Source: Alphaproteobacteria bacterium MarineAlpha10_Bin2
Lineage (GTDB): Bacteria > Pseudomonadota > Alphaproteobacteria > UBA828
NCBI GenBank assembly: GCA_002937555.1
Contig: PTKB01000003.1
Location: forward strand, 1-35,713
Direction of reading: 5' to 3'
DNA length: 35,713 nucleotides
The notes beneath the pieces are model-generated. The model was not told where the DNA came from and did no database searches. It saw nothing but the letters and a program-made list of their open reading frames with translations. Position numbers and translations under genes: made by a program. Positions 1,792 to 29,735 of this stretch are shown piece by piece; position 1 is the stretch's first letter, and every line of letters starts with the position of its first letter.

Positions 1792-2496
1792 TCAGCCCAA
1801 ATGGGGTGGTGGGCGGAGATGCGGGCTCAAGCGCCATTCGGCGTATTTCAAGGTGCGGACGATGACAAGGGTCAGTGCGAGATAGAAAATCGCCGCCAGG
1901 AGAAACAATTCGTAGGGCGCGAAGGTACGCGCGACGATGACCCGCGCAACGCCGGTGATGTCCAAGAGCGTAATCGTGCTGGCGAGCGCGCTGCCTTTGA
2001 GAATGAGGATGATTTCATTGCCGTAGGCCGGCAGGGCGAGGCGAAAAGCACGGGGAACAGTGATGCGGCGCAGTATTAAGAATTTTGGCATGCCGAGCGC
2101 GCGCGCCGCTTCAAGCTCACCGTGCGGCACTGCCTGAATGGCGCCCCTCAGGATTTCCGCCGTGTAGGCGGCGGTGTTGAGAGTGAAGGTAAATATGGCG
2201 CACCAATAGGCTTCCTTGAATACCAGCCACAGGAAACTTTCGCGCACCGCTTCGGATTGGCCCAAGCCGTAATAGACGATGAAGATCTGCACCAGGAGCG
2301 GCGTGCCGCGGAAGACGAAGATAAAGCCATAAACCGGCATCCAAACGACGGCATGTTTGGACACCCGCGCGAGCGCCAACGGGATCGCCAAGCACAAACC
2401 AAGCGCCAGCGCCAAAGCGATCAACTGCACCGTCATCGCCATGCCCTCGAGGAGCGACGGGATGCTGTCGACCATCAATTGGAGATCGAATTCCAT
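1792..2496 (-). CDS. Polar amino acid ABC transporter permease (HisM/ArtM type)
   Basis: 234 aa; MEFDLQLMVDSIPSLLEGMAMTVQLIALAL...FVFRGTPLLVQIFIVYYGLGQ; EAARALGMPKFLILRRITVPRAFRLALPAYGNEIILILKGSALAS is the HisMQ signature loop. Confidence 0.93.
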   Translation of the reverse strand: MEFDLQLMVDSIPSLLEGMAMTVQLIALALALGLCLAIPLALARVSKHAVVWMPVYGFIFVFRGTPLLVQIFIVYYGLGQSEAVRESFLWLVFKEAYWCAIFTFTLNTAAYTAEILRGAIQAVPHGELEAARALGMPKFLILRRITVPRAFRLALPAYGNEIILILKGSALASTITLLDITGVARVIVARTFAPYELFLLAAIFYLALTLVIVRTLKYAEWRLSPHLRPPPHLG

Positions 2497-2500
2497 GCGC

Positions 2501-3190
2501 CTAACCCATGCGCACGCCGCGTCGGGCGCGGCGCTCGGAATATTGCAACACGACCATCGAGACGATGGTGAAGAGGAGATAGATCACCGCGGCGGCCAGA
2601 AAAAATTTGAACGGCTCGTGCGTTTTTCCGGCGGCGGCGCGAGTATTGTACATGAGCTCGTTGAGGTTCACGACCGAGATCAGCGACGTGTCCTTGAGCA
2701 GCACCAGCCATAGATTGCCGAGGCCAGGAAGGGCGAAGCGCCACATTTGCGGCAGCATGACGCGGCGGAACATTTGCAGACGCCCCATGCCGACCGCGTA
2801 AGCCGCTTCCACCTGCCCTTTGGGAACGGCAAGAATAGCGCCGCGGAACACTTCGGTGGCGTAGGCGCCGAACACGAAGGCGAGCGTAAACGTGCCGGCG
2901 ATAAACGGCTTTATTTCGACATATGATTCACCGCCGAGCCCGTGCCAGATATTCTGCACCAACAAGGAACCGCCATAAAAGACGATGAGAAGCAGCAGCA
3001 ATTCGGGCAGGCCGCGGACAATCGCGGTATAGGCAGTCGCCGCGCCGCGCAACAGGATGAAATTCGATAGCTTGGCGGTGGCGCCGACCAATCCGAACAC
3101 CAGGCCGAGCGCGACCGAAGCCAGGGCGACCCTGAGGGTCAGCCAAGCCCCGTCGACCAGCAACGGCCCATAGCCGTGCAGTTCGATCAC
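2501..3190 (-). CDS. Polar amino acid ABC transporter permease (HisQ/ArtQ type)
   Basis: 229 aa; TAIVRGLPELLLLLIVFYGGSLLVQ...VEAAYAVGMGRLQMFRRVMLPQMWRFALPGLGNLWLVLLKDTSLIS; adjacent to the HisM-type permease. Confidence 0.93.
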   Translation of the reverse strand: MIELHGYGPLLVDGAWLTLRVALASVALGLVFGLVGATAKLSNFILLRGAATAYTAIVRGLPELLLLLIVFYGGSLLVQNIWHGLGGESYVEIKPFIAGTFTLAFVFGAYATEVFRGAILAVPKGQVEAAYAVGMGRLQMFRRVMLPQMWRFALPGLGNLWLVLLKDTSLISVVNLNELMYNTRAAAGKTHEPFKFFLAAAVIYLLFTIVSMVVLQYSERRARRGVRMG

Positions 3191-3219
3191 GCGCGGGGCA
3201 CCTTCTCCTGAAAAACGAA

Positions 3220-3251
3220 AGCGCCCCGGGCCGTTATGGCCCGGGGACGCT
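3220..3251 (-). terminator. GC-rich stem-loop between SBP and permease genes (mRNA stabiliser or partial attenuator)
   Basis: agcgccccgggcc-gttat-ggcccggggacgct: paired arms with one bulged base, in the 82-nt gap between the SBP stop (3273) and the permease start (3190). Confidence 0.55.
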
Positions 3252-3272
3252 TGCTCTCATGTCGCGGTCGGT

Positions 3273-4061
3273 CTAACCGCCATAGACATCGAAGCCGAAA
3301 TATTTGTCGTTGATTTTCTTATAGGTGCCGTTGGCGCGGATAGCGGCAATGGCGTCGTTGAGCATTTTCTGCAAATCCGTATCGCTTTTGCGGATGGCGA
3401 TGCCGGCGCCGTCACCGAACCATTTCGGATCGGTAAAGTCGGGGCCGACGAATTCGGCATCCTTGCCGGCGTCGGTTTTCAGAAAGCCTTCTTCCAAGGC
3501 GACGCTGTCGGCGAGAAGCAGGTCCACGCGGCCCGCCGTGAAATCGAGATAGGCTTCGTCCTGGGTACCGTATCCCTTGATTTCGACGATATCGCCATAA
3601 TTATCGTTCACGAAATTCTCGTGGATGGTGGCGCGCTGCACACCAACCGTTTTTCCTGCCAACGAATCACGATTAATTTCGATGCCGGAGCCCTTCTTGC
3701 GCACGAATTTGGCCGGCGTCGAATAATATTTGTCGCTGAAGGACACCTTCTTCTTGCGTTCCTCGGTGATCGACATCGAGGCGATGATGGCGTCGTACTT
3801 GTTGGCTAGAAGAGCGGGAATAATGCCGTCCCAATCCTGCGGTACCAAATCGCATTCTGCGTTCATTTGCTCGCAGATCGCATTAGCGATGTCGATGTCG
3901 AAGCCCATTAACGTGCCGTCCGGCTCCATCCAACTGAAGGGCGGATAGGCGCCCTCGACGCCGACGCGCAGCTTGCTCCAATCCTTCGCTTCTGCGATTC
4001 CGGCGTATAGCGCCACTGAGGCGGCGAGAATAATGGCCGTCAGTAAATTTCGGATTTTCAT
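3273..4061 (-). CDS. Periplasmic substrate-binding protein of a lysine/arginine/ornithine/histidine-type ABC transporter
   Basis: Start trimmed to MKIRNLLTAIILAASVALYAGIAEA (signal peptide) with GAGCTG upstream; LRVGVEGAYPPFSWMEPDGTLMGFDIDIANAICEQMNAECDLVPQDWDGIIPALLANKYDAIIASMSITEERKKKVSFSDKYY is SBP family 3. Confidence 0.93.
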   Translation of the reverse strand: MKIRNLLTAIILAASVALYAGIAEAKDWSKLRVGVEGAYPPFSWMEPDGTLMGFDIDIANAICEQMNAECDLVPQDWDGIIPALLANKYDAIIASMSITEERKKKVSFSDKYYSTPAKFVRKKGSGIEINRDSLAGKTVGVQRATIHENFVNDNYGDIVEIKGYGTQDEAYLDFTAGRVDLLLADSVALEEGFLKTDAGKDAEFVGPDFTDPKWFGDGAGIAIRKSDTDLQKMLNDAIAAIRANGTYKKINDKYFGFDVYGG

Positions 4062-4133
4062 TTTCAGCTCCCTGTTTTTTGTGTCCAGCCTCAAGGTTCC
4101 GATTTCCCAAAGGCGCGGTCAAGAGTTCAAAAG

Positions 4134-4934
4134 TTAAAATTCACCGGCGGCGAGGAACTGCCGGCAACGTTCGGAGCGTGGCGCGCCAAAGACTTGCGAC
4201 GGCGGGCCCTCTTCCTCGACACGGCCGTCATGAAGAAATATTGCCTTCGAGGAAACTTCGCGTGCGAACGCCATCTCGTGGGTGACGATAATCATCGTCC
4301 GGCCCTCTTCGGCGATATCGCGGATTACTTTTAGCACTTCGCCGACCAATTCCGGATCGAGCGCCGATGTCGGCTCGTCGAACAGCATCAATTGCGGCTC
4401 CATGGCGAGCGCGCGGGCGATCGCAGCGCGCTGTTGCTGACCGCCGGAGAGATGGGCCGGGTAATGCTCGCGCTTGTCGGTCAGCCCGACCCGCTCCAAG
4501 AGCGCCTCTGCCCGCTCGTACGCTTCGGCTTTGGGCAGTTTCAACACATGCAGCGGCGCTTCGGTCAAATTCTGCATAACCGTCATATGCGTCCATAGAT
4601 TAAAACTCTGGAACACCATGCCGATGGTCGAACGAATACGATCGACCTGACGCGCGCTCTCGGGCACGAGCCCTTTACGGCCCTTGTTTTTCATGCGGAT
4701 TAATTCGCCACCCACCCAGATGCGCCCGGCACTGGGCGTTTCCAAAAGATTGACACAGCGCAGCATGGTGCTCTTGCCCGAGCCGCTGGCGCCGATGATG
4801 GAGAGAACGTCGCCCTCCCCCGCCGTGGCGGAGACGCCCTTCAGCACCTCGAGCGGACCGAAGCTCTTATGCAAATCCTCGACCGCGAGCGCGTTGCCGC
4901 CATCAGGGACTTGGTCAGTCACGCTTTCCGTCAC
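4134..4934 (-). CDS. Polar amino acid ABC transporter ATP-binding protein (HisP/GlnQ type)
   Basis: Walker A GASGSGKST, signature LSGGQQQRAAIARAL, Walker B LMLFDEPTSALDPE. Start re-assigned to GTG at 4934, overlapping the upstream TGA (4931-4933) as GTGA, rather than the longer 4994 ORF. Confidence 0.93.
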   Translation of the reverse strand: MTESVTDQVPDGGNALAVEDLHKSFGPLEVLKGVSATAGEGDVLSIIGASGSGKSTMLRCVNLLETPSAGRIWVGGELIRMKNKGRKGLVPESARQVDRIRSTIGMVFQSFNLWTHMTVMQNLTEAPLHVLKLPKAEAYERAEALLERVGLTDKREHYPAHLSGGQQQRAAIARALAMEPQLMLFDEPTSALDPELVGEVLKVIRDIAEEGRTMIIVTHEMAFAREVSSKAIFLHDGRVEEEGPPSQVFGAPRSERCRQFLAAGEF

Positions 4935-6043
4935 ATTGAAACTCGACACACCGTATCCGTTTGGTAGCCCGTAATTACCCGCCGCCAACCGCACAGCTTC
5001 TCATCCAATGCGCGGTCGCCGGTATCCACATGCAACAGATTATCCCGAAGCGAAGCAATTTTCTCTATCGTTGCGGCGACGGTGATGTGTTCGATACCGA
5101 CGCGCGAAATCACGGCGGCGCTGATCTGCTGATTGCCACGGCCGAAAAAATGCCCCTGCCCGCCGATTGGCGTCACGGCGATGGCTGCCGTGCTGTCCAA
5201 GGCGGCAAGGATATCGCGCTCGCCGGCATCATCGGCGATGCGCGCGCCGTCGCGCAACAGATCGACGCCGAGCAGGGTTTTTTCCACGCCGATCGCTTCC
5301 GCCACGGCGCGCATGGTGGTGCCGGGGCCAAGGATATAGAGGCGCCCCGGCTCCATCGCCTCGGCGATGCGCATTGCGATGCCGGCGAGCGCCGTGCGGT
5401 CGCGGCTGACGCCGCCGGCCTTGCTGCCCTGCACCAGATCGGGCAAATAGGGCACACTCAAATAGCCGTAGAGCTTGGCCGAGACCGCGCCGTCGCGGAA
5501 CGCCGCCTCGTCGATATCCATCACTTCGAGCTCGCGCAGCGAAATACCGCCCTGCAAATAACGCAGCACCATGCGGGCAGCGGCGCGCGGGTTGGTGGCA
5601 TAAACGGCGGAATGCATTTTCACCCCGGCGGGAATACCGACCACCGGAACGGTGCCGCCGATGGCGCGCACCAAATCGCGCGCCGTGCCGTCGCCGCCGG
5701 CAAAGAGGATGAGATCGACCGGCAGCTCGGCCATCGCTTGCGCAGCACGCTCGCTGTCATCGGCGGTCGTATCGCCGTCCATTGAAGTTCCGATTATTTC
5801 AGCTGTGTAGCCGGCCGCGCGCGCCTCCGTCTCACCCATCTCCCCGGGGGCAGCGAACAGCTTAAGGGGCGTGTTTGCTTGGGCGATGGCACCGAGCGCC
5901 TCAAGGGCGCGCGCCGGCGCTTGCGGCTCGGCGCCCAATTCCCGCGCGCGGGCGACGATTTCGGGCGTATCGCTGCCCTTGAGTCCAACGGTGCCGCCCA
6001 TCCCGGCGATGGGATTGACGATCAGACCGAGGCGGAAGGCCAC
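4931..6043 (-). CDS. ATP-NAD kinase family protein (AcoX-like)
   Basis: 370 aa; LGLIVNPIAGMGGTVGLKGSD...ILFAGGDGTARDLVRAIGGTVPVVGIPAGVKMHSAVYATNP: NAD-kinase-type GGDGT motif and AcoX-like architecture. Confidence 0.85.
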   Translation of the reverse strand: MAFRLGLIVNPIAGMGGTVGLKGSDTPEIVARARELGAEPQAPARALEALGAIAQANTPLKLFAAPGEMGETEARAAGYTAEIIGTSMDGDTTADDSERAAQAMAELPVDLILFAGGDGTARDLVRAIGGTVPVVGIPAGVKMHSAVYATNPRAAARMVLRYLQGGISLRELEVMDIDEAAFRDGAVSAKLYGYLSVPYLPDLVQGSKAGGVSRDRTALAGIAMRIAEAMEPGRLYILGPGTTMRAVAEAIGVEKTLLGVDLLRDGARIADDAGERDILAALDSTAAIAVTPIGGQGHFFGRGNQQISAAVISRVGIEHITVAATIEKIASLRDNLLHVDTGDRALDEKLCGWRRVITGYQTDTVCRVSM

Positions 6044-6049
6044 CAGGGC

Positions 6050-7648
6050 TCAATAGCCTCCGTGGTGATGTTCGATCTTGCGCCGGTTTTCCGACGTCCA
6101 CATTGCTTTTTTGCGCATGTATCCGCGATAGGTGAAGGCCCAGCAATCCGGGTCTTCCGGCACGTCGCCGTCGATGCGCGTGGTGGCGGCATTGTAGGGC
6201 CCGCCTTGCGCTTTCTCGGCGTCGCTATAGGCCTCGTCGGAGATCGCCTGCAGCGCCGCCAGCATCTGATCCATCTCCTCGACCGTCAGCGATTCGCCGG
6301 GCTCCATGGTAAATGGCTCCGGCACCAGCATCGGCATATGGCTCGGCATGCAATGCTGCACGCCGAAATCGACCATGCGGTCGATCACGTCATGGCTGGT
6401 GACGCCGGTCTCGGCGAACATCTGCTCGAAGCTGTAGCGCACCTGTTCGAGCTTGGGATAATTGTTGGCCGGCCACGGAATGGTGACGCCGCGCACGTCG
6501 CGCATCTTGGCGAGCATATAGTTGTTGTTGAGGACCGCCGTCTCGGCCACGGCACGGAGACCCTCGGCGCCGAGACTCATGACCCAGGAATAGGCCTTCA
6601 ACACCGCATGCACATTGCCAATAAAGGCGCGAATGCGGTCGATGCCTTCGCCTCGGTCATAGTCGAGGCGGTAACCGCCGGCGCCGTCCTCGGCGACGAT
6701 CGGGCGCGGCAGGAATTTGCGTAGAAATTCCTTCACGCCGACCGCGGCGCAACCCATGCCGAGCGAGCCGTGCGGCGCGGAGAACGTCTTGTGCAGGTTG
6801 AACTGACACATGTCGAAGCCGGTATCGCCGGCGCGCACCACGCCCAAGAGCGGATTGCCGTTGGCCTGGTCGTATGCGCAGAGCCCGCCCGCCTCGTGCA
6901 CCAGATCGACGAACTGGCGGATATGCGGATTATACTGCCCGGTATCTTCCGGGTTGGTCAGCATCAGGCCCGCGGTGCGCTCGGAAATCGCCGCCTTCAG
7001 CGCATCCACCCCGGCGTAACCCATGTCGCCCGGCATCAGCGTGATCACCTTGAAGCCGGCGACCGACGGCGTCGCCGCGTCCGCCGGATGCGAGAAGGAG
7101 GTGGTGATGATTTCGTCGCGCTTGCCCAGATCGCCGCGCGATTCATGATAGGCGCGGATCAAGCATGCGTTGGTGTAAATGCCCTGGGCGCCGCTTGCCG
7201 GCTGGAACGTGAATTCGTCCATGCCGGAGATCTCGCACATGATGCGGTTGAAGCGGTACATCAGCTCCAACAGGCCTTGCAGGCTTTCCACCCCTTGCAA
7301 CGGATGAAGATCGGCGAGCCGGGCGCCGCGCGCGATATGCTCATGGACCTTCGGGCTGTATTTCATCGTGCAGGTGCCCATCATGTCGGTGGTGACATCG
7401 AAGCCCATGCACATTTGCGACAAGCGCAGGAAATGGCGCAGCACGCGATGCTGCGTCACCTCGGGCAAATCAGGCGGCGCGGCGCGGCGCGCGCCTTCGG
7501 GCAGTGAAGCCGCCACATCGCCGACGGCGGCGACAATTTCCGCATCCACGGCAGGTGGCACGATGCCGCGTGCGCCGGCTTCGCTCAACTCGTTGATCAG
7601 CGCCTCGTTCCAGCGCGCGGCATGAAAGCCGCTTCCATTCGCGCTCAT
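6050..7648 (-). CDS. gcvPB: Divergent glycine dehydrogenase (decarboxylating) subunit 2-like PLP enzyme
   Basis: 532 aa; GTCTMKYSPKVHEH, ISGMDEFTFQPASGAQGIYTNACLIRAYHESRGD and the PLP-lysine region FNLHKTFSAPHGSLGMGCAAVGVKEFL. Overall GcvPB, but hallmark motifs altered (see findings). Confidence 0.85.
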   Translation of the reverse strand: MSANGSGFHAARWNEALINELSEAGARGIVPPAVDAEIVAAVGDVAASLPEGARRAAPPDLPEVTQHRVLRHFLRLSQMCMGFDVTTDMMGTCTMKYSPKVHEHIARGARLADLHPLQGVESLQGLLELMYRFNRIMCEISGMDEFTFQPASGAQGIYTNACLIRAYHESRGDLGKRDEIITTSFSHPADAATPSVAGFKVITLMPGDMGYAGVDALKAAISERTAGLMLTNPEDTGQYNPHIRQFVDLVHEAGGLCAYDQANGNPLLGVVRAGDTGFDMCQFNLHKTFSAPHGSLGMGCAAVGVKEFLRKFLPRPIVAEDGAGGYRLDYDRGEGIDRIRAFIGNVHAVLKAYSWVMSLGAEGLRAVAETAVLNNNYMLAKMRDVRGVTIPWPANNYPKLEQVRYSFEQMFAETGVTSHDVIDRMVDFGVQHCMPSHMPMLVPEPFTMEPGESLTVEEMDQMLAALQAISDEAYSDAEKAQGGPYNAATTRIDGDVPEDPDCWAFTYRGYMRKKAMWTSENRRKIEHHHGGY

Positions 7649-9042
7649 GACAACACCTCCGCGAGGCTATCGACAAGCCGGTCGATTTCTTTCTTGCCGT
7701 GTATTTCGGTGACGCAGTAAAGCGCCGACTGGCCGAATTCCGGAAACTCGTCGCTTAAATCTTTGCCGCCGAATATGCCGTTCGCCAGCAACGCGGCGTT
7801 GACCTCGGCGACGGTTTTGCCGCTGGCGGCGAAATCGATGATGAACTCCTTGAAAAAGGCGCAATCCAAATGGGCGACGCCGATGCCGTCGAGGCTGTCG
7901 ATGCGCTCGGCGGCGTAACGCGTGCGTTGCATGATTCCAGCTCCCAATTCCTCGATCCCGCGCGGCCCCATCAGCGACAGATAGACCGCCGCACCGATGC
8001 CCCACAGCCATTGCGTGGTGCCGGCGTAATCCTCCGAATCATGGCGCTTGTCGTAGGAGGTTCGCTCCATGGTCGACCAGGCGAAGCCGATATCGCCTTC
8101 CTCGGCGCCGGGCGCGATGCTCATCAGGATCATCGGAAATTCGGCGACGAAGCGTTCTTCGTCGCGGCTGGCGATAAACCCGGCGCAGCCGCCGCCGGCA
8201 TACATGTGAATGCCGAGCGGCTGAATTTCGCCGCACACGATATCGGCGCCGTAATCGCCGGGCGCCGCGAGCACGCCGAGGCTTAAGGGGTCGACACCGA
8301 CCACCAGCATGGCGCCGGCGGCATGCACCAACTCGGCAATTTCCGCGCCGCGCCCCTCGATGAGGCCGAAATAGGACGGGTTCTCAAAATAAACCGCGCC
8401 GATATCGGAGGTGAGCTTTGATTTGAGATCGTCCAAATCCACCAGCCCGCTCGCCGCATCGAGGGCGATCGTATCGACATCCGCCACCATCTTGGTGAAG
8501 CCGCGGATTTGCGATTGCATGTCGCCGCTGACGGCGCCCGACAACAGCACGCCGCGTCGTCCGGTGATGCGGCAGGCCATGGTGACGGCGCTGTTGACCG
8601 CCGCGCCCATGTCATAGGCCGGGGTGCCGACGACTTCCATGCCGACCAACTCGCCGATCAGGCTTTGGAATTCGAACATCGCCTGATTCTTGCCATGGTC
8701 CGAATAGGTGCCGCCGCCATAGGCGGTGAGAAACTCGCCACGCCCGGTAATTTCGTCGCAGATCGCCGGGACATAATGTTGCCAGCAGCCGGCGCCGCAA
8801 AAATTGAGGTGATCGCGGCACGAGAGATTCTTGCCGATAATGGCTTCGACATGGCTGCGCAGATCATGCTCGGACGGCAGCGGATCGGGCAGGTTTAGGA
8901 GACCTTTCACCTGCAAATCCTCGGGCACAGAGGCATACAGATCGGTGACACTGCCGACGCCGATTTCCGCCAGCAGGCGCTGTCTCGCCTGCGGCGCCGC
9001 GTTCGGAACGTAAGGGTGAATAAAACCTTTTTCGTCCGTCAT
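7645..9042 (-). CDS. gcvPA: Divergent glycine dehydrogenase (decarboxylating) subunit 1-like protein
   Basis: 465 aa; HPYVPNAAPQARQRLLAEIGVGSVTDLYASVPEDL...HYVPAICDEITGRGEFLTAY...MFEFQSLIGELVGMEV: GcvPA family. ATGA overlap with the gcvPB-like gene. Confidence 0.85.
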   Translation of the reverse strand: MTDEKGFIHPYVPNAAPQARQRLLAEIGVGSVTDLYASVPEDLQVKGLLNLPDPLPSEHDLRSHVEAIIGKNLSCRDHLNFCGAGCWQHYVPAICDEITGRGEFLTAYGGGTYSDHGKNQAMFEFQSLIGELVGMEVVGTPAYDMGAAVNSAVTMACRITGRRGVLLSGAVSGDMQSQIRGFTKMVADVDTIALDAASGLVDLDDLKSKLTSDIGAVYFENPSYFGLIEGRGAEIAELVHAAGAMLVVGVDPLSLGVLAAPGDYGADIVCGEIQPLGIHMYAGGGCAGFIASRDEERFVAEFPMILMSIAPGAEEGDIGFAWSTMERTSYDKRHDSEDYAGTTQWLWGIGAAVYLSLMGPRGIEELGAGIMQRTRYAAERIDSLDGIGVAHLDCAFFKEFIIDFAASGKTVAEVNAALLANGIFGGKDLSDEFPEFGQSALYCVTEIHGKKEIDRLVDSLAEVLS

Positions 9043-10020: not shown

Positions 10021-11697
10021 TTAGGCGTCGAAACGGTCGATCACGACACCCGGCGGCGTGGCGGCAACATAGTCCTTGCCGTCGAACACATGTTGGCCGT
10101 TTACCCACACGCCATGCACGCCCTCGGAATCGCGCGTGAGGCGGCTTTCTCCGCCGGGTAAATCGAAGGCGCGGCGCAACGGCCCGCGCGTCACCGTCGC
10201 CGGGTCGAACAGCAACAGATCGGCATGGGCGCCGGGAGCGATACGTCCACGATCGGTAATGCGGTAGAGATCGGCGGGCAAGCTGGTCAGGCGTCGAATG
10301 GCATCGGCCAAATCAAATGACCCACGCTCGCGCACCCAATGTCCGAGCAAATGGAGGCCATACGCCGCATCGCAGAGATAGCGCAGATGCGCGCCGGCAT
10401 CCGACAGACTGATCAAGCTGCCGGGCTCCTGCATGAGCTTCTCGACTTCGTCTTCGTTGGAATTCATCAGGCCGGCGGTAAAGACCGTCTCCAGACCCTC
10501 ATCCGCGGAGAGATCGAAAAAGGCATCGATGGGATCCTTGCCCTGGCGTTCGGCGACTTGCTCGATGTTCAGCCCTTCCAAACTCTGGTTCTCCGGCCGC
10601 GCCGCCATGGCGACCTCAACATTCGACCAATCGCCAAAGAACAATTTGCCTTTCTGCGGCACGTCCAAATCGTGGCGGAAGCGGCGGCGGAATTCCGCGT
10701 CGCGGATTTGACGCTCAAAACTTTCATTGTCGACATTGATCAGCGGCCGCCATGAATCCAGGCTTTGCATCGGGAAGGCGGCGGTCAGGGCGAAATCCAT
10801 GCTGAGGCTTTGGCAGGACACTTGCGCCCAAAGTTGGTTTCCGCGTGCCTGAGCGGCGGCGGAATCGGACACCATCTGGGGCGCGCGCTCAGGGAACGCC
10901 TCGTTATAGAGCGCCGCAGTCTGGAACACGGGGCAGTTATTGTCGTGCGCCAGCGATTCCATCACTTCGGAGGTCATGCTCGGCCCGACGGTGAGTTGGA
11001 ACACGCCCCGGCCCTTTTCACCGAGTACGCCCACCAGGCTGCGCATCTCGCTTTCCTCGGCGAGGCGTGAGGGCATCGGCACGCCGCCATCGCCGTAATG
11101 ATTGATCGAGGTGGAAGTGGAGAAGCCGATGGCACCGGCGTCGATGCCGCCGCGCACCAGATCCCGCATTTCCGCCACTTCATCCTCGCGCGCCGCACGC
11201 TCGGAAGCTTCCGGCCCCATCACCATGGTGCGCACGGCGGAATGGCCGATAAAGGCGGCCACGTTCGGCGTCACGCCCTTGCGTCTGAGCAGCGCCAAAT
11301 ATTCGTCGAAGCTTTCGAAATCCCAATTTGTGCCGCTGCGAAGCGCGGTCAGCGACATGCCCTCGACCTCGGCCAGATTGCGCGCAATCAGATCGCGGCA
11401 ATCGGGCGGGCACGGCGCGATGGAAAAGCCGCAATTGCCGACGACAACGGTCGTCACGCCCATCGAGGGCGAGGGCGTGGCGTTCGAATCCCAAGTCAGC
11501 TGCGCGTCGTAATGGGTGTGCACATCGACGATGCCGGGGGCGAGCACCAGCCCGTCGCCGTCGACGCTCTCCTTGGCGCCGCCGTTCAATTTTCCGACTT
11601 CGGAAATGCGGCCATCTTTGACCGCTACATCCGCCGTCCTGAGCGGCGCGCCCGTGCCGTCGGCAACTTCTGCGCCTTTGATGACAAGATCATACAT
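10021..11697 (-). CDS. Amidohydrolase family protein, N-acyl-D-amino-acid deacylase type
   Basis: 558 aa; MYDLVIKGAEVADGTGAP...LVLAPGIVDVHTHYDAQLTWDSNATPSPSMGVTTVVVGNCGFSIAP; C-terminal GRIAPGAHADLLLFDPATV. Confidence 0.88.
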   Translation of the reverse strand: MYDLVIKGAEVADGTGAPLRTADVAVKDGRISEVGKLNGGAKESVDGDGLVLAPGIVDVHTHYDAQLTWDSNATPSPSMGVTTVVVGNCGFSIAPCPPDCRDLIARNLAEVEGMSLTALRSGTNWDFESFDEYLALLRRKGVTPNVAAFIGHSAVRTMVMGPEASERAAREDEVAEMRDLVRGGIDAGAIGFSTSTSINHYGDGGVPMPSRLAEESEMRSLVGVLGEKGRGVFQLTVGPSMTSEVMESLAHDNNCPVFQTAALYNEAFPERAPQMVSDSAAAQARGNQLWAQVSCQSLSMDFALTAAFPMQSLDSWRPLINVDNESFERQIRDAEFRRRFRHDLDVPQKGKLFFGDWSNVEVAMAARPENQSLEGLNIEQVAERQGKDPIDAFFDLSADEGLETVFTAGLMNSNEDEVEKLMQEPGSLISLSDAGAHLRYLCDAAYGLHLLGHWVRERGSFDLADAIRRLTSLPADLYRITDRGRIAPGAHADLLLFDPATVTRGPLRRAFDLPGGESRLTRDSEGVHGVWVNGQHVFDGKDYVAATPPGVVIDRFDA

Positions 11698-11717: not shown

Positions 11718-12311
11718 TCAGGGCGCTTCGACGATCTTTACGCCGATCATCGAATCCCGCGTCACCAGCTTGGCCAGTTCCTCCCGGCTCATGCCGTCAG
11801 TGCTGGCTGGCCGTCTGGGCAGCACCAGATAGCGCATGTCGGCGGTGTTGTCGTGCACCCGCACCTCGACATCCGCGCTCGGCTCGGTGCCGAATTCCTT
11901 CAACACCATGCGCGGCTCGCGCACGACGCGGGAGCGGTAGTTTACCGACTTGTACCAATCCGGCGGAATGCCCATCAACATGCGCGGGAAGCAGGAGCAA
12001 AGGGTGCAGACGATGACGTTGTGCACCGTCTCGGTGCTTTCCACCACCATCAGGCGCGTCGGTCCCATATCGAGGCCGATGCTCTCACAGGCTGCCGTAC
12101 CGTCGGCCAGCAGGCGCGCTTTGAAATCCGGATCGGTCCAGGCTTGTGCCACCACCGCCGCACCGATGTCCGGCGTGCGTTTGGCCATGGCATCGATCTC
12201 CGCTTCCATATCGGCTGCGCTGAAATAGCCCTTGTCGATCAAAAGTGCGCTGACGGCGAGTTCCATCGCCTGATAGTGATCGAGGACGCTGTCCTCCGAA
12301 CGCATGGTCAT
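11718..12311 (-). CDS. Nitrile hydratase alpha / thiocyanate hydrolase gamma-like metal-binding subunit
   Basis: 197 aa; VIVCTLCSCFPRMLMGIPPDWYKSVNYRSRVVREPRMVLKEFG, with the CTLCSC claw at 11991-12008; LVTRDSMIGVKIVE C-terminus. ATGA overlap with the upstream gene. Confidence 0.92.
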   Translation of the reverse strand: MTMRSEDSVLDHYQAMELAVSALLIDKGYFSAADMEAEIDAMAKRTPDIGAAVVAQAWTDPDFKARLLADGTAACESIGLDMGPTRLMVVESTETVHNVIVCTLCSCFPRMLMGIPPDWYKSVNYRSRVVREPRMVLKEFGTEPSADVEVRVHDNTADMRYLVLPRRPASTDGMSREELAKLVTRDSMIGVKIVEAP

Positions 12312-12598
12312 GTGTTTTCCTCCGACTCAAGCCAGTGCTCGTACAGCTCCACATCGATGGTATCGCCGGCGGAGCCGGAATAATCCGACCACACCCGGGA
12401 TTGGGCGAAGCGCACGCGGTAGAGCGGGCGCTTGGGTAGGCCGTCGCGTCCGAACGCGAGTTCCTCCGGATTGGCGAAGGAATCGAGCACCTGGGCTATA
12501 TGGCCGGATTTACCGCGGATGTAATAGGGCGTGCGCACATGGCCTGGCGGAAAGGCGCGCCGCACGGTGACATTGTCTCCAGGCACGAAACGGGCCAT
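12308..12598 (-). CDS. Nitrile hydratase beta C-terminal-half protein (thiocyanate hydrolase alpha-like)
   Basis: 96 aa; FVPGDNVTVRRAFPPGHVRTPYYIRGKSGHIAQVLDSFANPEELAFGRDG..PLYRVRFAQSRVWSDYSG..DTIDVELYEHWLE: SH3-like C-terminal half of NHase beta. Confidence 0.88.
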   Translation of the reverse strand: MARFVPGDNVTVRRAFPPGHVRTPYYIRGKSGHIAQVLDSFANPEELAFGRDGLPKRPLYRVRFAQSRVWSDYSGSAGDTIDVELYEHWLESEENT

Positions 12599-12933
12599 CA
12601 GCCTCTGTCTCCCGCTGCGCGCGCCGTGTCTTCGACTTCGGCCATTTTGCGGCCCAACTCGTCGGAAGAAATAATGCCTTTTTCCAATAAATTGTGTGTG
12701 ATCGAGGAGACCCAGCGTTCGTAATAGGTCATCTTTGAATAGTTTTCCGCGCCCAGTTCCTCGATGCCGCGGCGCAACTCATCGACGCCGATGACGCGGC
12801 GCTTCGAGTTGGAGAGCAGCATCATCAGCGCGTCCACACGCTTTTCCCATTCCGGATGGGAATGCCCGCCCCGGTCCACCGGGCCGGCATCGCGCCCGCC
12901 CATATCGTGATGCATGCGTCCGGCGTTTGCCAT
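12598..12933 (-). CDS. Nitrile hydratase beta N-terminal-half protein (thiocyanate hydrolase beta-like)
   Basis: PEWEKRVDALMMLLSNSKRRVIGVDELRRGIEELGAENYSKMTYYERWVSSITHNLLEKGIISSDELGRKM. ATG at 12933 preferred over the TTG at 12942 in the track; stop overlaps the next start as TGATG. Confidence 0.85.
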   Translation of the reverse strand: MANAGRMHHDMGGRDAGPVDRGGHSHPEWEKRVDALMMLLSNSKRRVIGVDELRRGIEELGAENYSKMTYYERWVSSITHNLLEKGIISSDELGRKMAEVEDTARAAGDRG

Positions 12934-12993
12934 GTCATTCAACCCTCTCTGCCGTGCCGCATCATGCTACCCGGCGATGCCCGGCAGGCAAGC

Positions 12994-13824
12994 CTAATCG
13001 CCTTCGCCAGGCGGCCAAATGACGGGAAACCAATCTTCGCGCAGGCGCTCGCCGGTTTTCTGCCCGATGCCGGGATAAGGCGGCGAGGTGCGGCCCGGAC
13101 GCTCAACGAAACGGGCGTCTTCGCCAAGCCAGCGCGGCGCGAAACCGCGCCGGCGCCCGGCTCCCGGATTGGCCGGCGCGCCGTGCACAGTGCTGAAGTG
13201 AAAGAGAATCACATCGCCCGGCGCGAGTTCATAACTGCGGATATCGTATTTCTCGCGTTCGCGGTCGATGCTGGGGATGGTTTCGAAGCCGCCGCCGTCA
13301 TAGGCGTAGTCCGTGTCGTCGGCGAAACGGCGCGGATAGAACAGTTTTCCCCAGCGGTGCGAGCCGGCGATGAATTCGGGACAGACGTCGCGCGGCACCG
13401 GGTCGAGGGGGATCCAAAAGCTCACGGTCTGGCGGCCGTCGACGCAGTAATAGGGCGCGTCCTGGTGCCAGGGCGTGCGCTTGGCGGTGCCCGGTTCCTT
13501 GACCAAGACATGTTCGTGAAAAAATTGCGCGCTTGGGGACTGCATCACCGCCGCAGCGACGGCGGCGGCGGGCGATTCATAGACGAAGGCGCGGTATTCG
13601 GGGATGCGCTCCCAGTTGCAATAATCATCGAAGAATCTGCCCTGCCCCTCGCCATGCTCGCCGGCATAGGGACCCGGCTCGGCGAGGTTGCGCTCGACGC
13701 CGTCGCGCAAAGCATCGAGCCAGTCGCCGGCAAAAAGGCCGCGCAGGACGCCGACGCCGTCGCGTTGGTATCCGGCGACGTCGTCCTCGCCGACAAGCGC
13801 GGTTAACCGATCCCGTCCGACCAT
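12994..13824 (-). CDS. Phytanoyl-CoA dioxygenase (PhyH) family Fe(II)/2-oxoglutarate-type oxygenase
   Basis: 276 aa; metal motif TPWHQDAPYYCVDG, VSFWIPLDPV, LAPGDVILFHFSTVHGAPANPGAGRRRGFAPRW. Confidence 0.88.
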   Translation of the reverse strand: MVGRDRLTALVGEDDVAGYQRDGVGVLRGLFAGDWLDALRDGVERNLAEPGPYAGEHGEGQGRFFDDYCNWERIPEYRAFVYESPAAAVAAAVMQSPSAQFFHEHVLVKEPGTAKRTPWHQDAPYYCVDGRQTVSFWIPLDPVPRDVCPEFIAGSHRWGKLFYPRRFADDTDYAYDGGGFETIPSIDREREKYDIRSYELAPGDVILFHFSTVHGAPANPGAGRRRGFAPRWLGEDARFVERPGRTSPPYPGIGQKTGERLREDWFPVIWPPGEGD

Positions 13825-14695
13825 TGGGCTATTTTCTCGCCGACTTCATGGGGAAAATCCTCGGCGACATAATGGCCGCTTTCGCCGAGAAATACATCTT
13901 CGAGATTGGGGAAATCGCGGCGGCACATCTCCACCGTCTCGGGCGGAACAATGGCGCCGGGCTGGACGTGAAACAGCAGCTTTGGCAGCGCGGATTTCTT
14001 TAGCTCGGCGACATAATTGCTGATGATTTCTGCCGTGCCCGCGGGCTTGCCCTCGATCGGCAGCTCCTGCGGCCACACCCAGAGCGGCTTGCGGTGGGCG
14101 ACATCGCGGAACGGTTCGAGATAAGTGTTCATTTCCGCCTCCGACAGATCGCGGTGAATGCCGTAAGGCAGAATCTCTTCCATGAAGACGTTCTTCTCGA
14201 CAATCAGTTCCCAACTCACGCCTTCGGTGCGGAACTGTTTAAAGCCTTCGGCCAGATCCTGCGGCCAATCGTCCCAACTGGGGAAGGTGCGGACGAAGGT
14301 TTCCATGAACGCCAGGCCGCGGATGTTGTCCTGGTGGCGCATGGCGTAGTTGAGGCCGAGGCCGCCGCCCCAGTCGTGCAGCACCAGGGTGATGTCCTTT
14401 AAGCCGAGGGGGCTTCGATGAAGCCTTCGATATAGCCGTGGTGATCGGCGTAATCATAGTTGATGTCGGGCTTGGCGGATTTTCCGAAGCCGATCAGGTC
14501 GGGTGCGATGCAACGGCCGCGGCCTTCGAGGTGCGGGATGACGTTGCGCCACATATAGGACCAGGTGAAATTGCCGTGCAGCAAGAGGAACGGTTTGCCC
14601 TCGCCGACATCGGCGTAATGCATAGCTGCGCCGTTGATCTCGATGAAATTGGGCTCGAAGGGATAGTCGGCCGAAAACGGCCCGCGGCCTGTCAT
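13803..14695 (-). pseudogene. Alpha/beta hydrolase of haloalkane dehalogenase type, split by a frameshift
   Basis: N-part (14399-14695) LLLHGNFTWSYMWRNVIPHLEGRGRCIAPDLIGFGKSAKPDINYDYADHHGYIEGFIEA, then a frame change at the G5 run 14408-14412 to LGLKDITLVLHDWGGGLGLNYAMRHQ...GESGHYVAEDFPHEVGEKI (13803-14384 ORF). Together one haloalkane-dehalogenase-like chain. Confidence 0.8.
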
Positions 14696-14751
14696 GTATC
14701 GTTCTCCCTGGCTCTTTGGATTGCGCACGCGACGCGGGCGCGGCCGGCATG

Positions 14752-14776
14752 GTATCAGATTATCTGGATAAGATAC
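14752..14776. promoter_or_regulatory. Candidate operator with nested inverted repeats between the divergent hydrolase run and the amidase
   Basis: gtatcagattatctggataagatac contains CAGAT-T-ATCTG, TTATC-TG-GATAA and outer GTATC...GATAC; 15 bp upstream of the amidase ATG. Confidence 0.35.
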
Positions 14777-14790
14777 TTCGGGACCGAACC

Positions 14791-16242
14791 ATGGCCGATC
14801 AAAACAATGCGAGCGAACTCTATCGCCTCAGCGCCGCCGACGCTGTTACCTTCTTGCGGAAGGGTGAAATTTCTCCTGTAGAACTGGTCGAGGCATCGGC
14901 GGCTCGCATCGAGGCGACGGACGGCGCGCTGAATGCCCTGCCGACACTCTGCATCGAACGCGCGCGGGCACACGCCGAGCGCATCATGAAGAACGGCGGC
15001 ACCGGACGGCGCGATCCGGCCTGGCTCGGCGGTCTGCCGATTTCGGTCAAGGACCTGGTGCCGGTCGAGGGCGTGCGCACGACATGGGGCTCGCCGCTCT
15101 ACGCCGATCATGTGCCGGCGCGCTCCGACATTATGGTGGAACGGCTGGAGGCCAATGGCGCGATCGTCATGGGCAAGAGCAACACGCCGGAATTCGGCGC
15201 CGGCGCCAGCACCTTCAACGAAGTGTTCGGCAAGACGCGCAATCCGTGGAACACCGACAAGAGCTGCGGCGGCTCGTCCGGCGGGGCGGCGGTTTCGCTG
15301 GCTGCCGGCCAAGTGTGGATGGCGACCGGCTCCGACCTCGGCGGCAGCCTGCGCATTCCGGCGAGCTATTGTTCGGTCACGGGCTTGCGGCCGAGCCCGG
15401 GCCGGGTGGCGCACGGGCCGGCGGACTTGCCCTACGACACGCTTATGGTCGACGGGCCGATGGGCCGCGATGCGCTCGATACGGCGCTCTTCCTCGACGC
15501 CATGTGCGGCGCCCATGTGGAAGACCCGATCTCCCTCGCCGCCCCGGCAGAACCCTTTGCCCAGGCGGTGCGCGAGAAGGAAAAACACGCGCCGAAGCGG
15601 GTCGCCTACAGTCCTGATCTCGGAGAATTTCCGGTCGATAGCGAAGTGGCCGAAATATGCGCCGCCGCCGCCCAGCGCTTTCAAGCCATCGGAGCGGAGG
15701 TCGAAGATGGCGGCCCGAGCTTCAAGGGCGCGGTGGACATATTCCAGACGCTGCGCGCGGTGCTGTTCTCGGCGATGAAGGCCGACATGCTGCGGACCCG
15801 CCGCGACGCGCTGAAACCGGAGCTGATTTGGAATATCGAAAAGGGCTTGGCGCTCCAATCGGACGAGATCGGCGCGGCGGAAATCGCCCGCGGCAAGCTT
15901 TATCGGCGCATGGCGAAATTTTTTGCCAATCATGACTTGTTGCTCTGCCCGACCGTCATCGTGCCGCCGTTCGATGTCGACATCCGCTATGTCGAAGAGG
16001 TGAACGGCCATAAGTTCGACAATTACGTCGATTGGCTGGGCATTACCTTTGTGATCTCGCTAACCGGCTGCGCCGCTATTTCGACACCGGCGGGATTTAC
16101 CAAGGACGGCTTGCCGGTCGGTCTGCAAATCGTCGGCCCGCCCGGCGCCGAAGCGCGCGCCCTCGCCGCGGCGGCGTTGATGGAAGAGCAGATGGGATTG
16201 TCCGGCCACGTCCCGATTGCTCCGAAGAGCCCGGGTGGTTAG
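14791..16242 (+). CDS. Amidase (amidase signature family)
   Basis: Start trimmed to MADQNNASELYRLSAADAV; LGGLPISVKDLVPVEGVRTTWGS, KSCGGSSGGAAVSLAAGQVWMATGSDLGGSLRIPASYC (Ser-cisSer-Lys signature). Confidence 0.93.
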   Translation: MADQNNASELYRLSAADAVTFLRKGEISPVELVEASAARIEATDGALNALPTLCIERARAHAERIMKNGGTGRRDPAWLGGLPISVKDLVPVEGVRTTWGSPLYADHVPARSDIMVERLEANGAIVMGKSNTPEFGAGASTFNEVFGKTRNPWNTDKSCGGSSGGAAVSLAAGQVWMATGSDLGGSLRIPASYCSVTGLRPSPGRVAHGPADLPYDTLMVDGPMGRDALDTALFLDAMCGAHVEDPISLAAPAEPFAQAVREKEKHAPKRVAYSPDLGEFPVDSEVAEICAAAAQRFQAIGAEVEDGGPSFKGAVDIFQTLRAVLFSAMKADMLRTRRDALKPELIWNIEKGLALQSDEIGAAEIARGKLYRRMAKFFANHDLLLCPTVIVPPFDVDIRYVEEVNGHKFDNYVDWLGITFVISLTGCAAISTPAGFTKDGLPVGLQIVGPPGAEARALAAAALMEEQMGLSGHVPIAPKSPGG

Positions 16243-18049: not shown

Positions 18050-18805
18050 CTACCAGGCCGCCCAGCCGCCATCGACTAGCAAATTGGCGCCGTGCACCTG
18101 ATCAGAATCCGAGGATGCCAGGAACACCGCGGCACCGGTGAGTTCGTTCGGGTCCATATGGCCGACGCCAGTCGGCGTCAGCGACGCCTGACGTTCGTCA
18201 TAGCCCGCCTCGGCGCGGTACGGCGCGTTCATATCGGTCTTGATGTTGCCGGGCGCGAGCGAATTCACATTGATGCCGTCCTTGGCCAGTTCCAGACAGA
18301 GCGCGTTCACCATGTTCACCTGCCCGCCTTTCGACGAGCAATAGGCGCCCGAATTGGGAAAGCCGCCAACGCCGGCGATGGAAGTGATGTTGATGATTTT
18401 GCCGCTACCCTTGGCTTTCATGGTCGGCACCACCGCACGCGCCATGAAGAAGCTGCCCTTCAGGTTGAGGTCGATTTGGGTGTCCCAGATTTCTTCGGTG
18501 GTGTCCTCGATGGGGACGGCGGTGAAAATTCCGGCATTGTTGACCAGTATGTCGACCGTGCCGAACGCGGCGATGACCTCGCCGGCCAAGCGGTCGCATT
18601 CCGACACCTGGGCGACATCGGCCTGAAACGCCTTGGCCTCGCCGCCAGCGTCGTTGATCTCCTTGACGACGGCCTCGGCCTTGTCGAGATTTGAATGTGC
18701 GACGACGGCGACACGCGCGCCCTCGGCGCCATAGCGCCGGGCAATACAGGCGCCGATACCACGCGAGCTGCCGGTGATGATGGCGACCTTACCTTCGAGT
18801 TTCAT
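18050..18805 (-). CDS. SDR family oxidoreductase (3-oxoacyl-ACP-reductase-like)
   Basis: VAIITGSSRGIGACIARRYGAEGARV, DILVNNAGIF, ITSIAGVGGFPNSGAYCSSKGG, LLVDGGWAAW. Confidence 0.94.
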   Translation of the reverse strand: MKLEGKVAIITGSSRGIGACIARRYGAEGARVAVVAHSNLDKAEAVVKEINDAGGEAKAFQADVAQVSECDRLAGEVIAAFGTVDILVNNAGIFTAVPIEDTTEEIWDTQIDLNLKGSFFMARAVVPTMKAKGSGKIINITSIAGVGGFPNSGAYCSSKGGQVNMVNALCLELAKDGINVNSLAPGNIKTDMNAPYRAEAGYDERQASLTPTGVGHMDPNELTGAAVFLASSDSDQVHGANLLVDGGWAAW

Positions 18806-18867: not shown

Positions 18868-20079
18868 TCAAGCTGCGGCGATGTCCGGCCACTCCGCGTC
18901 GCGCGAGCGGCTCAGCGCGGCGCCGATATCGCTCAGGCTATTCAGGCTGTGCACGGTGCGGAAATCATCGACATGCGGCAGGATCGCCCGAACGCCGCGC
19001 GCTTCAGGGCGGAAGCCTTCGAAACGCAGCAGCGGATTGAGCCAGATCAGGCGGCGGCAGGATTTGTGCAGGCGCTCGATCTCGCGCTCGAGCCCGTCGA
19101 CATCGCCGCGGTCCAGCCCGTCGGTAATCAACAAAACCACCGCGCCCTGGCCGAGCACCCGGCGTGACCAGGAGCGGTTGAAGTCGAGCAGGCTCTCGCC
19201 GATACGGGTGCCGCCCGACCAGTCGAGCGCGGCATTGGCCACCCGGTCAAGCGCCACATCGACATCGCGGTACTGCAAATGGCGGGTGATATTGGTGAGG
19301 CGGGTGCCGAATATGAAACTGTGCACTCGGTCGCGGTCATTGGTGATGGCGTGCACGAAATGGAGGAACATACGCGAATAACGGCTCATCGACCCAGATA
19401 TGTCGCACAGCACGACGAGCGGCGGATGGCGGGTGACGCGGCGGCGGTATTTGAGTGGCATGATGGCGCCGGAGGTGCGCATCCCGGCGCGCAGCGTCGC
19501 CCGCATATCGATCTTGGCGCCGCGCGGATCGGCGGCGAAACGGCGTGTCGGGATCTCCATGATCGGCAGGCGCATTTCGGCGATGACCCGCTTGGCCTCT
19601 TCGACCTCCTCCTTCGACATGCTGTCGAAATCCATTTCCTGCAGCACTTCCATGGCGGAATAGGTTTGCGTGGCGTCGAGCTCGACTTCGATTTCGTCCT
19701 CGGCCTGCGGCTTGGGCGGATCGTCGGGCGAAAGCGCATCGGCCACGCGGCGGCTTATTTTCTCCGGCTCGCCCTTTTCCGCCGCCGTCGGGGCGGCGAC
19801 CGCCATCATGCGGCGCAACTCTTCAGGGTTGCGCCAAAACAGGCGAAACGCCTGGTCGAAAACCTGACGCTGGGCGGCGCGCTCGACGAATACGGCATGC
19901 ATCGCCCAGTAAAAATCATGGCGCGGCGCGAGCCCGATCAAATCCGCCGCCTGCACTGCCTCCAGCGTCTTGCCGGGGCCGACCGGCAGGCCGGTGGCGC
20001 GCAGCGCACGGGCGAAATGCATGATGTTTCGCGCGAGCTTGCCGCCGCCGACAATATCGACCGGTGCCAGACGGCTCAT
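18868..20079 (-). CDS. VWA domain-containing protein, CoxE-like
   Basis: 403 aa; MRTSGAIMPLKYRRRVTRHPPLVVLCDISGSMSRYSRMFLHFVHAI (MIDAS DxSxS); ATGA-type overlap with the upstream MoxR gene. Confidence 0.9.
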   Translation of the reverse strand: MSRLAPVDIVGGGKLARNIMHFARALRATGLPVGPGKTLEAVQAADLIGLAPRHDFYWAMHAVFVERAAQRQVFDQAFRLFWRNPEELRRMMAVAAPTAAEKGEPEKISRRVADALSPDDPPKPQAEDEIEVELDATQTYSAMEVLQEMDFDSMSKEEVEEAKRVIAEMRLPIMEIPTRRFAADPRGAKIDMRATLRAGMRTSGAIMPLKYRRRVTRHPPLVVLCDISGSMSRYSRMFLHFVHAITNDRDRVHSFIFGTRLTNITRHLQYRDVDVALDRVANAALDWSGGTRIGESLLDFNRSWSRRVLGQGAVVLLITDGLDRGDVDGLEREIERLHKSCRRLIWLNPLLRFEGFRPEARGVRAILPHVDDFRTVHSLNSLSDIGAALSRSRDAEWPDIAAA

Positions 20080-20999
20080 GAGCTGCTCTCTCCGAGATCG
20101 CCCAGCACGCCTTGAAGCGTTGCAGCCTGAGCGGCGGCGCCGCCGGCCTGATGATTTTTAATAATTTGCGCGATTCCGGCGCTGGTATCTTTCGGGTCGA
20201 GTTCCTGACGGTCCAAATCGATCAATGTGGCGGCCCAATCGACCGCCGCCCGGACGAACGCGTCGCCGCGAAATTCGGTTTGTCGCAATTCATCCACCAA
20301 GCCATCCAGGCGTTCCGTCAGGCGCCGCGCAATGCCGGGCGCACGGAATTCGAGTATCTCCGCCTCGCGCGCGGCGTCCGGGTAATCGATCCAGTGATAG
20401 ACGCAGCGTCGCTTGAGCGCGTCGTGAATTTCGCGTGTGCGATTGGAGGTGAGCACGACAATCGGGCGCTGGGCAGCGCGGATGGTGCCCAATTCCGGCA
20501 CGCTTACCTGAAAATCGGAGAGGATCTCCAACAGATAGGCTTCGAAGCCTTCGTCGGCGCGGTCGATTTCATCGATCAACAAAACCGGCGCGCCGGCGTC
20601 GCTCTCCTCCAATGCTTGAAGTATCGGGCGCTTGACGAGAAAGCGCTCGGAGAAAATATCGGCGGCGACTTCGTCTTTGTCGCGGTCCTTCTCATGCTCG
20701 GCGAGACGAATCTCGATCATCTGCGCGGCGTAGTTCCACTCGTAAACGGCGGCGGATGCGTCCAAGCCTTCATGACATTGCAAGCGCAGGAGCGGGCGGC
20801 CCATTTCGCGCGCGAGAACCAATCCAAGCTCGCTCTTTCCGACGCCGCTGCGGCCTTCAAGCAGAAGCGGGCGGCCGAGTTTGAGTGAGAGAAAGAGCGC
20901 CGTCGCCAAGCCGCTGTCGGGCACGTACTTGCCCTTCCGCAACAGCGCGCGCGTGCTCTCGACCGAATCGGGAATCTTCGTCGTGTCCATTCTCACCAT
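20076..20999 (-). CDS. MoxR-family AAA+ ATPase (CoxD-like)
   Basis: 307 aa; LLLEGRSGVGKSELGLVLAREMGRPLLRLQCHEGLDASAAVYEWNYAAQMIEIRL...APVLLIDEIDRADEGFEAYLLEILSDFQVSVPELGTI...VVLTSNRTREIHDALKRRCVYHWIDYP. Confidence 0.92.
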   Translation of the reverse strand: MVRMDTTKIPDSVESTRALLRKGKYVPDSGLATALFLSLKLGRPLLLEGRSGVGKSELGLVLAREMGRPLLRLQCHEGLDASAAVYEWNYAAQMIEIRLAEHEKDRDKDEVAADIFSERFLVKRPILQALEESDAGAPVLLIDEIDRADEGFEAYLLEILSDFQVSVPELGTIRAAQRPIVVLTSNRTREIHDALKRRCVYHWIDYPDAAREAEILEFRAPGIARRLTERLDGLVDELRQTEFRGDAFVRAAVDWAATLIDLDRQELDPKDTSAGIAQIIKNHQAGGAAAQAATLQGVLGDLGESSS

Positions 21000-29565: not shown

Positions 29566-29735
29566 GGTGATCCTCGCCCTGTCGGTTGATGTCGGAGTGA
29601 AAGAGTGTGACAGCGCTTGCCAACGGTCAAAACTTTTCTTTGCGCAAGGCTCAATAACGGCGTGTCGCCAAGCTCTGCGTTGGCCTATCATGGCCGTCAC
29701 GGATTGACGTGGTCGATAGCAAGGAGAGGCAGGAG

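Follow-up and report, generated by a model that had tools for sequence, protein, structure and literature searches.

The nearest known counterparts of the gene pair analysed here are the P-proteins of glycine cleavage, which occur as the two subunits GcvPA and GcvPB, as in Thermus thermophilus (1wyt/1wyu/1wyv), or as a single chain with homologous halves, as in human GLDC (6i35), Synechocystis (4lhc) and E. coli (9uz6). For human GLDC, docking has led to the proposal that Arg373 and Lys376 form salt bridges to the H-protein (PMC7259800). Another point of comparison is AcoX, which is typical of acetoin dehydrogenase clusters and has an unknown function (PMC3543383), and which is a predicted NAD kinase (PMC9676059).

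The window, i.e. the whole analysed stretch of 35,713 nucleotides from Alphaproteobacteria bacterium MarineAlpha10_Bin2, carries a two-gene pair (hereafter variant PA and variant PB) that shares with Thermus GcvPA/GcvPB the two-gene arrangement, the fold, the PLP lysine and the PLP contacts. However, the pair belongs to a separate clade, and the canonical active-site motifs TPYQPE, HGTNPA, DGAN, TNPNT and EQHIRRExATSNIC are replaced in it. Unlike two-subunit glycine decarboxylases, it lacks gcvH and gcvT nearby and has NAD-kinase-like and short-chain dehydrogenase (SDR) partners, and the window genome has a canonical single-chain P-protein of its own besides the pair, with gcvT and gcvH. The genes of this region are as follows.

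1792..2496, minus strand: HisM-type permease
2501..3190, minus strand: HisQ-type permease
3273..4094, minus strand: family 3 amino-acid-binding protein, passing the Lys/Arg/Orn binding-protein cut-off (286.8 vs 256.35)
4134..4994, minus strand: HisP-type polar amino-acid ABC ATPase, probably starting further downstream than listed
4931..6043, minus strand: COG3199/AcoX-type ATP-NAD-kinase-like protein, 370 aa (PF01513, E=1e-18; PF20143, E=5.4e-13)
6050..7648, minus strand: variant PB, GcvPB-like subunit of the variant clade, 532 aa (PLP lysine K287, stacking His H187, Asp D260)
7645..9042, minus strand: variant PA, GcvPA-like subunit of the variant clade, 465 aa
9073..10005, minus strand: auxin-efflux-carrier (AEC) family transporter (PF03547, E=1.2e-36), 30 bases upstream of variant PA
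10021..11697, minus strand: amidohydrolase, 558 aa, a lineage-specific neighbour 15 bases beyond the AEC gene
11718..12311, minus strand: Co-type nitrile hydratase alpha (PF02979, E=5.9e-76; CTLCSC motif), a lineage-specific neighbour
12308..12598, minus strand: C-terminal part of nitrile hydratase beta, encoded separately (PF02211)
12598..12942, minus strand: N-terminal part of nitrile hydratase beta, encoded separately (PF21006)
18050..18805, minus strand: SDR oxidoreductase, 9 kb upstream of the pair

The open reading frames of variant PA and variant PB are both intact and overlap by 4 bases, and the NAD-kinase-like gene starts 6 bases downstream of variant PB. The product of this gene has the N- and C-terminal NAD_kinase domains with GGDGT, its kinase activity being a prediction, and the search for a solved relative gave none at E<=0.001. 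The gene at 4931-6043 presumably belongs to COG3199 and is presumably kin to AcoX. It is followed by the polar amino-acid ABC transporter spanning 1792-4994, of which the HisP-type ATPase is conserved in the window genus and in one genus of the same family.

On the other side of the pair, the nitrile hydratase genes start 20 bases beyond the amidohydrolase and encode an alpha subunit with the CxLCSC metal motif and both the N and C domains of beta. This three-gene nitrile hydratase with a split beta subunit lies in the same apparent operon as the pair and was seen only in parts of the window's family; it was rejected as a general pathway marker, being present in few members of that family. The window SDR is possibly the counterpart of the SDRs that adjoin the pair in other phyla.

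P-protein homology was found over both subunits. Profile searches matched variant PA to GDC-P (E=3e-48) and variant PB to GcvP2_C (E=1.2e-8), and both subunits aligned over nearly their full length with the Thermus chains (1wyt_A, E=9e-61; 1wyt_B, E=3.8e-85), with the PLP lysine in NLHKTF. The NCBIfam GcvPA/GcvPB equivalog cut-offs were exceeded as well (427.7 vs 364 and 507 vs 441). When the window was compared with its congeners (L045/L136), dN/dS was about 0.04 for variant PB, 0.09 for variant PA, 0.13 for the NAD-kinase-like gene and 0.07 for the canonical gcvP. These four genes are all under strong purifying selection, and the motif changes in the pair represent neither chance nor damage. 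The AlphaFold prediction of variant PB reached a pLDDT of 36.8 from the single sequence, and a mean pLDDT of 59.4 (pTM 0.67) from a 7-sequence alignment. The latter model is of low confidence and was used for the fold family only; therefore, we do not argue pocket geometry from it. Its next fold matches after the P-proteins were sphingosine-1-phosphate lyase and the cysteine desulfurase SufS, at 13-18% identity.

For the active site, we aligned 43-46 variants with 22 canonical sequences. The PLP machinery (K287, H286, D260, N263, N265, H187 and H293) was invariant in variant clade I, to which the window pair belongs, and in the canonical enzymes. Around it, variant PB carries the fixed or near-fixed switches P183T, S185F, A186S, G188P, N190D, P191A, T235D, E240N, G261Q, E157I, Y355W, A375N, H401E and E402Q, among which G188P, T235D, G261Q and A186S occur in 100% of the variants, with a different residue fixed in the canonical enzymes. 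The same holds for G110, P141, T328 and G341 of variant PA. In this subunit the TPYQPE loop is lost, with one residue deleted and Y113 and H116 gained, and EQHIRRExATSNICT has become TS(F/Y)xxR...GT. The replaced EQHIRRExATSNIC motif spans the positions of human GLDC Arg373 and Lys376, the docking-predicted H-protein contacts, which were placed via K754 in an alignment. At the position of Lys376, 32 of 43 variants, the window among them, carry an acidic residue (Asp or Glu). This replacement is consistent with a loss of H-protein docking, insofar as the docking-predicted interface is correct. In the heterodimer, T235D, G261Q and N190D would be expected to alter the shape of the substrate side, and the change from EQHIRRE to TSFxxR to close the lipoyl entrance or alter its charge.

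The first-pass annotation, made from the window sequence, had described a GcvPA/GcvPB-like pair at these coordinates in which hallmark glycine-decarboxylase motifs were replaced. All the strings that it quoted are present, and the alignment bears out its claim that the PLP-lysine context is kept while the active-site and H-protein-facing loops are altered. However, the His of SAHGTNPASA is retained (H187 of variant PB) and only the flanking residues have changed, and the LHPYQPEETVQG difference is present but minor.

In maximum-likelihood trees of PB (56 rows, stem branch of 0.74 changes per column) and PA (54 rows, stem of 0.60), clade I and its sister clade II formed one group with 100/100 support, and all canonical two-subunit and fused P-proteins fell outside it in both trees. 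Members of the variant group come from Asgard archaea, Chloroflexota, Acidobacteriota, KSB1, Bacteroidota, a few Alphaproteobacteria and cultured plasmid-bearing strains, including Rhodococcus jostii RHA1 (on plasmid pRHL1, near 436808-440894), Gemmobacter and Paracoccus aminophilus. A 60-genome survey of relatives gave variant PA at 64-90% identity within the window's family, and a collection scan gave it at 47-53% in a Hodarchaeota archaeon, Chloroflexota, KSB1, Bacteroidetes, Aminicenantes and bacterium SM23_31. Variant PB was found at 46-51% in about 36 of 232 genomes of the Asgard phylum. Asgard matches at 39-45% were separated from the variants and set aside because the four that we examined retain canonical motifs. 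The pair was also present in 8/349 Chloroflexota, in 8/297 genomes of the Aminicenantes-containing phylum and in 3/6 genomes of the SM23_31 phylum, and in no other of the 299 Pseudomonadota genomes drawn. Clade II occurs on plasmids of Gemmobacter, Rhodococcus, Sphingomonas, Paracoccus, Antarctobacter, Roseicitreum and the haloarchaeon Natronosalvus, and in 5/395 alphaproteobacterial genomes, not counting the window's own. Most of its members keep P188, D235, N240, E401 and the S/R/G pattern of variant PA, while the clade departs further from clade I elsewhere, e.g. APK in place of APHG. Judged by these sequences, the pair is an ancient, separate and widespread branch and not a local oddity or a local loss.

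Bin contamination is possible among the sampled genomes. One region sampled as Chloroflexota (L157, genome G649) is about 75% identical to the window's variant PB and has neighbours resembling those of the alphaproteobacterial genus g6, which makes contamination of the bin or a very recent transfer probable. In addition, the alphaproteobacterial bin G008 contains two copies of the pair (L053, L056), one of them close to the window; the other is about 48-51% identical and groups with sequences from the Aminicenantes-containing phylum.

The first-pass annotation had proposed searching the genome for a separate canonical gcvTHP set. Another contig of the window genome (291 contigs, 84.66% complete) carries gcvT, gcvH and a canonical gcvP of 979 aa, in which the TAYTPYQPEISQG, SAHGTNPASA, HKTFCIPHGGGGPG and REQHIRREKATSNICT motifs are intact. 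Thus, the pair is a paralogue, and its identity to the genome's own canonical P-protein is 24% for variant PA and 29% for variant PB. GCV_H and a canonical GDC-P match were each detected in 18/18 tested genomes that carry the pair, the latter as fragments only in some draft bins (G004, G008, G018, G355). Using profiles built from the canonical neighbours, we observed gcvH at 22/23 and gcvT at 19/23 canonical loci, a control set in which one genome is counted twice and one class dominates. With the same profiles neither gene was found at any of 70 variant loci, though most of these extend further out. On the window contig a single biotin/lipoyl domain was found (33467-33667), and it belongs, as the biotin domain, to a pyruvate-carboxylase-like gene lying 24 kb from the pair. 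The profile search of the loci thus agrees with the annotation that no GcvH or GcvT lies near the pair, and two of the three outcomes that it had named as fatal to its reading, placement inside the canonical GcvP clade and the pair being the sole gcvP of the genome, were both contradicted. Its view of a non-canonical enzyme was borne out, but instead of having lost hallmark motifs, the pair is better described as a long-established, coherent sister branch that has fixed motifs and partner genes of its own.

The NAD-kinase-like gene adjoins the pair in 17 of the 26 sampled lineages, and SDR genes lie beside it in 16 of 26, although the neighbourhoods in GC-rich bins rest on simple ORF calling. 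The usual order in Asgard archaea is SDR-SDR-PA-PB-kinase; that of clade II is kinase-PA-PB, so the NAD-kinase-like neighbour is repeated on plasmids. Lys/Arg/Orn-type binding proteins and polar amino-acid ABC transporters stand beside pairs of both clade I (in the window genus) and clade II. Other lineage-specific neighbours include an APC permease, an acyl-CoA synthetase, a primary-amine oxidase, an ArgE/DapE deacylase, sarcosine/glycine-oxidase-like DAO enzymes, and DHDPS-family and ornithine-cyclodeaminase-family enzymes. None of these accessory genes is universal, so that they single out no substrate for the pair. Relatives of the NAD-kinase-like protein in Peptoclostridium and Natronosalvus (L171, L172) adjoin other PLP-enzyme genes, not GcvP-like ones, which suggests that this family is more broadly linked to amino-acid catabolism.

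The separate ancient branch, the kinase-like neighbour and the missing glycine-cleavage partners together make it most likely that a different amino acid is processed. We would put at about even the chance that the pair is an active PLP enzyme that breaks a C-alpha bond of a non-glycine amino acid, with no lipoyl carrier, in a catabolic module. We infer the substrate class, decarboxylation and lipoyl independence as follows. The enzyme would bind an amino acid other than glycine, would break a bond at C-alpha, with alpha-decarboxylation most likely, and would protonate or otherwise release the product itself without handing it over to a lipoyl H-protein. It may work in an amino-acid catabolic module with the COG3199 NAD-kinase-like enzyme and short-chain dehydrogenases, and in the window lineage the neighbouring ABC transporter for polar amino acids could import the amino acid, or the neighbouring amidohydrolase could free it. 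Counted against this reading are the accessory genes, which differ between lineages and pin no single substrate, and the GcvH encoded elsewhere in the genome, which could serve in trans.

The same features could also be explained by a non-glycine substrate handled without decarboxylation, by a C-alpha/C-beta lyase, an eliminase or an enzyme cleaving an amino ketone supplied by the SDRs, by analogy with acetoin modules; this is possible but rather unlikely. In these modules AcoX, the predicted NAD kinase, is found together with an alcohol dehydrogenase and an enzyme that forms a carbanion, and no neighbours of the pair are more constant than the SDR and NAD-kinase-like genes. The acetoin clusters thus resemble our locus, as far as the likeness by description goes, in placing a predicted NAD kinase next to a catabolic enzyme that forms carbanions; however, their enzyme is ThDP-dependent whereas the one here depends on PLP, and the AcoX analogy is indirect. 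The nearest non-P-protein folds of the low-confidence model, sphingosine-1-phosphate lyase and cysteine desulfurase, would also suit a lyase, although their likeness to variant PB as fold-type I PLP enzymes is one of fold and does not specifically support their chemistry; a sphingoid-base-like pathway of SDR, kinase and lyase would be speculation. The primary-amine oxidase beside the Gemmobacter pair fits an amine product, and the P-protein homologues known to us are decarboxylases, both of which count against this alternative.

We consider it distinctly unlikely that the pair is a second glycine decarboxylase with drifted motifs, served in trans by the GcvH encoded far away in the genome or by some other lipoyl protein. 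The equivalog cut-offs passed by both subunits, the intact PLP site and the presence of GcvH in all carriers tested agree with such a role, but at motifs invariant in canonical enzymes the variants have fixed other residues across phyla, the motif facing the H-protein is replaced, gcvH and gcvT adjoin none of the 70 variant loci, and the same genomes keep a canonical P-protein while the pair forms a separate clade. The kinase-like partner and the lack of any activity on record could point to a non-catalytic protein that binds PLP for regulation or for PLP handling. This is very improbable given the invariant catalytic Lys, Asp and His, the retention of both subunits as a pair, the strong purifying selection and the catabolic neighbours. 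The fragmented and incomplete assembly could raise the suspicion of a degenerating pseudogene pair or an assembly artefact, a barely conceivable explanation that is refuted by the intact ORFs, the dN/dS of about 0.04-0.1 and the conservation in dozens of independent genomes.

Returning to the C-alpha-cleaving, lipoyl-independent enzyme on a non-glycine amino acid, we found nothing in the literature on the family (GcvP-like PLP enzymes, GcvPA beside nitrile hydratase, COG3199, AcoX/ATP-NAD kinase). The odds seem balanced that the pair founds an undescribed, lipoyl-free PLP family of the P-protein fold acting on a polar, possibly beta-hydroxy or oxidised, substrate, and that with the COG3199 kinase and SDRs it forms a catabolic pathway common to Asgard archaea and a scatter of bacteria. 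If so, this would be a new amino-acid-processing enzyme family, it would mean that the P-protein fold can function in the absence of H-protein, and it would give a way into the AcoX-type NAD-kinase-like proteins, which have long gone unexplained. The NCBIfam glycine dehydrogenase label on both subunits is probably a systematic misannotation. As both exceed the equivalog cut-offs, public "aminomethyl-transferring glycine dehydrogenase" labels need caution, and reconstructions of glycine cleavage and reductive glycine metabolism in Asgard archaea and uncultured lineages may count the wrong gene.

Further from the pair, the minus-strand gene at 13803-14384 encodes a haloalkane-dehalogenase-like alpha/beta hydrolase of 193 aa vs 296-306 aa in relatives (L045, L047), possibly reflecting a truncation or a frameshift in the window assembly. 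At 14716-16242 the likely real gene is a plus-strand amidase resembling that of L048, which the 418-aa ORF on the minus strand probably just shadows. Finally, a molybdenum hydroxylase large subunit is encoded at 29709-32066 on the plus strand, and a CoxE-like VWA protein and a MadB-like AAA ATPase at 18868-20999 on the minus strand, which suggests a CO-dehydrogenase-like or aldehyde-oxidase system.
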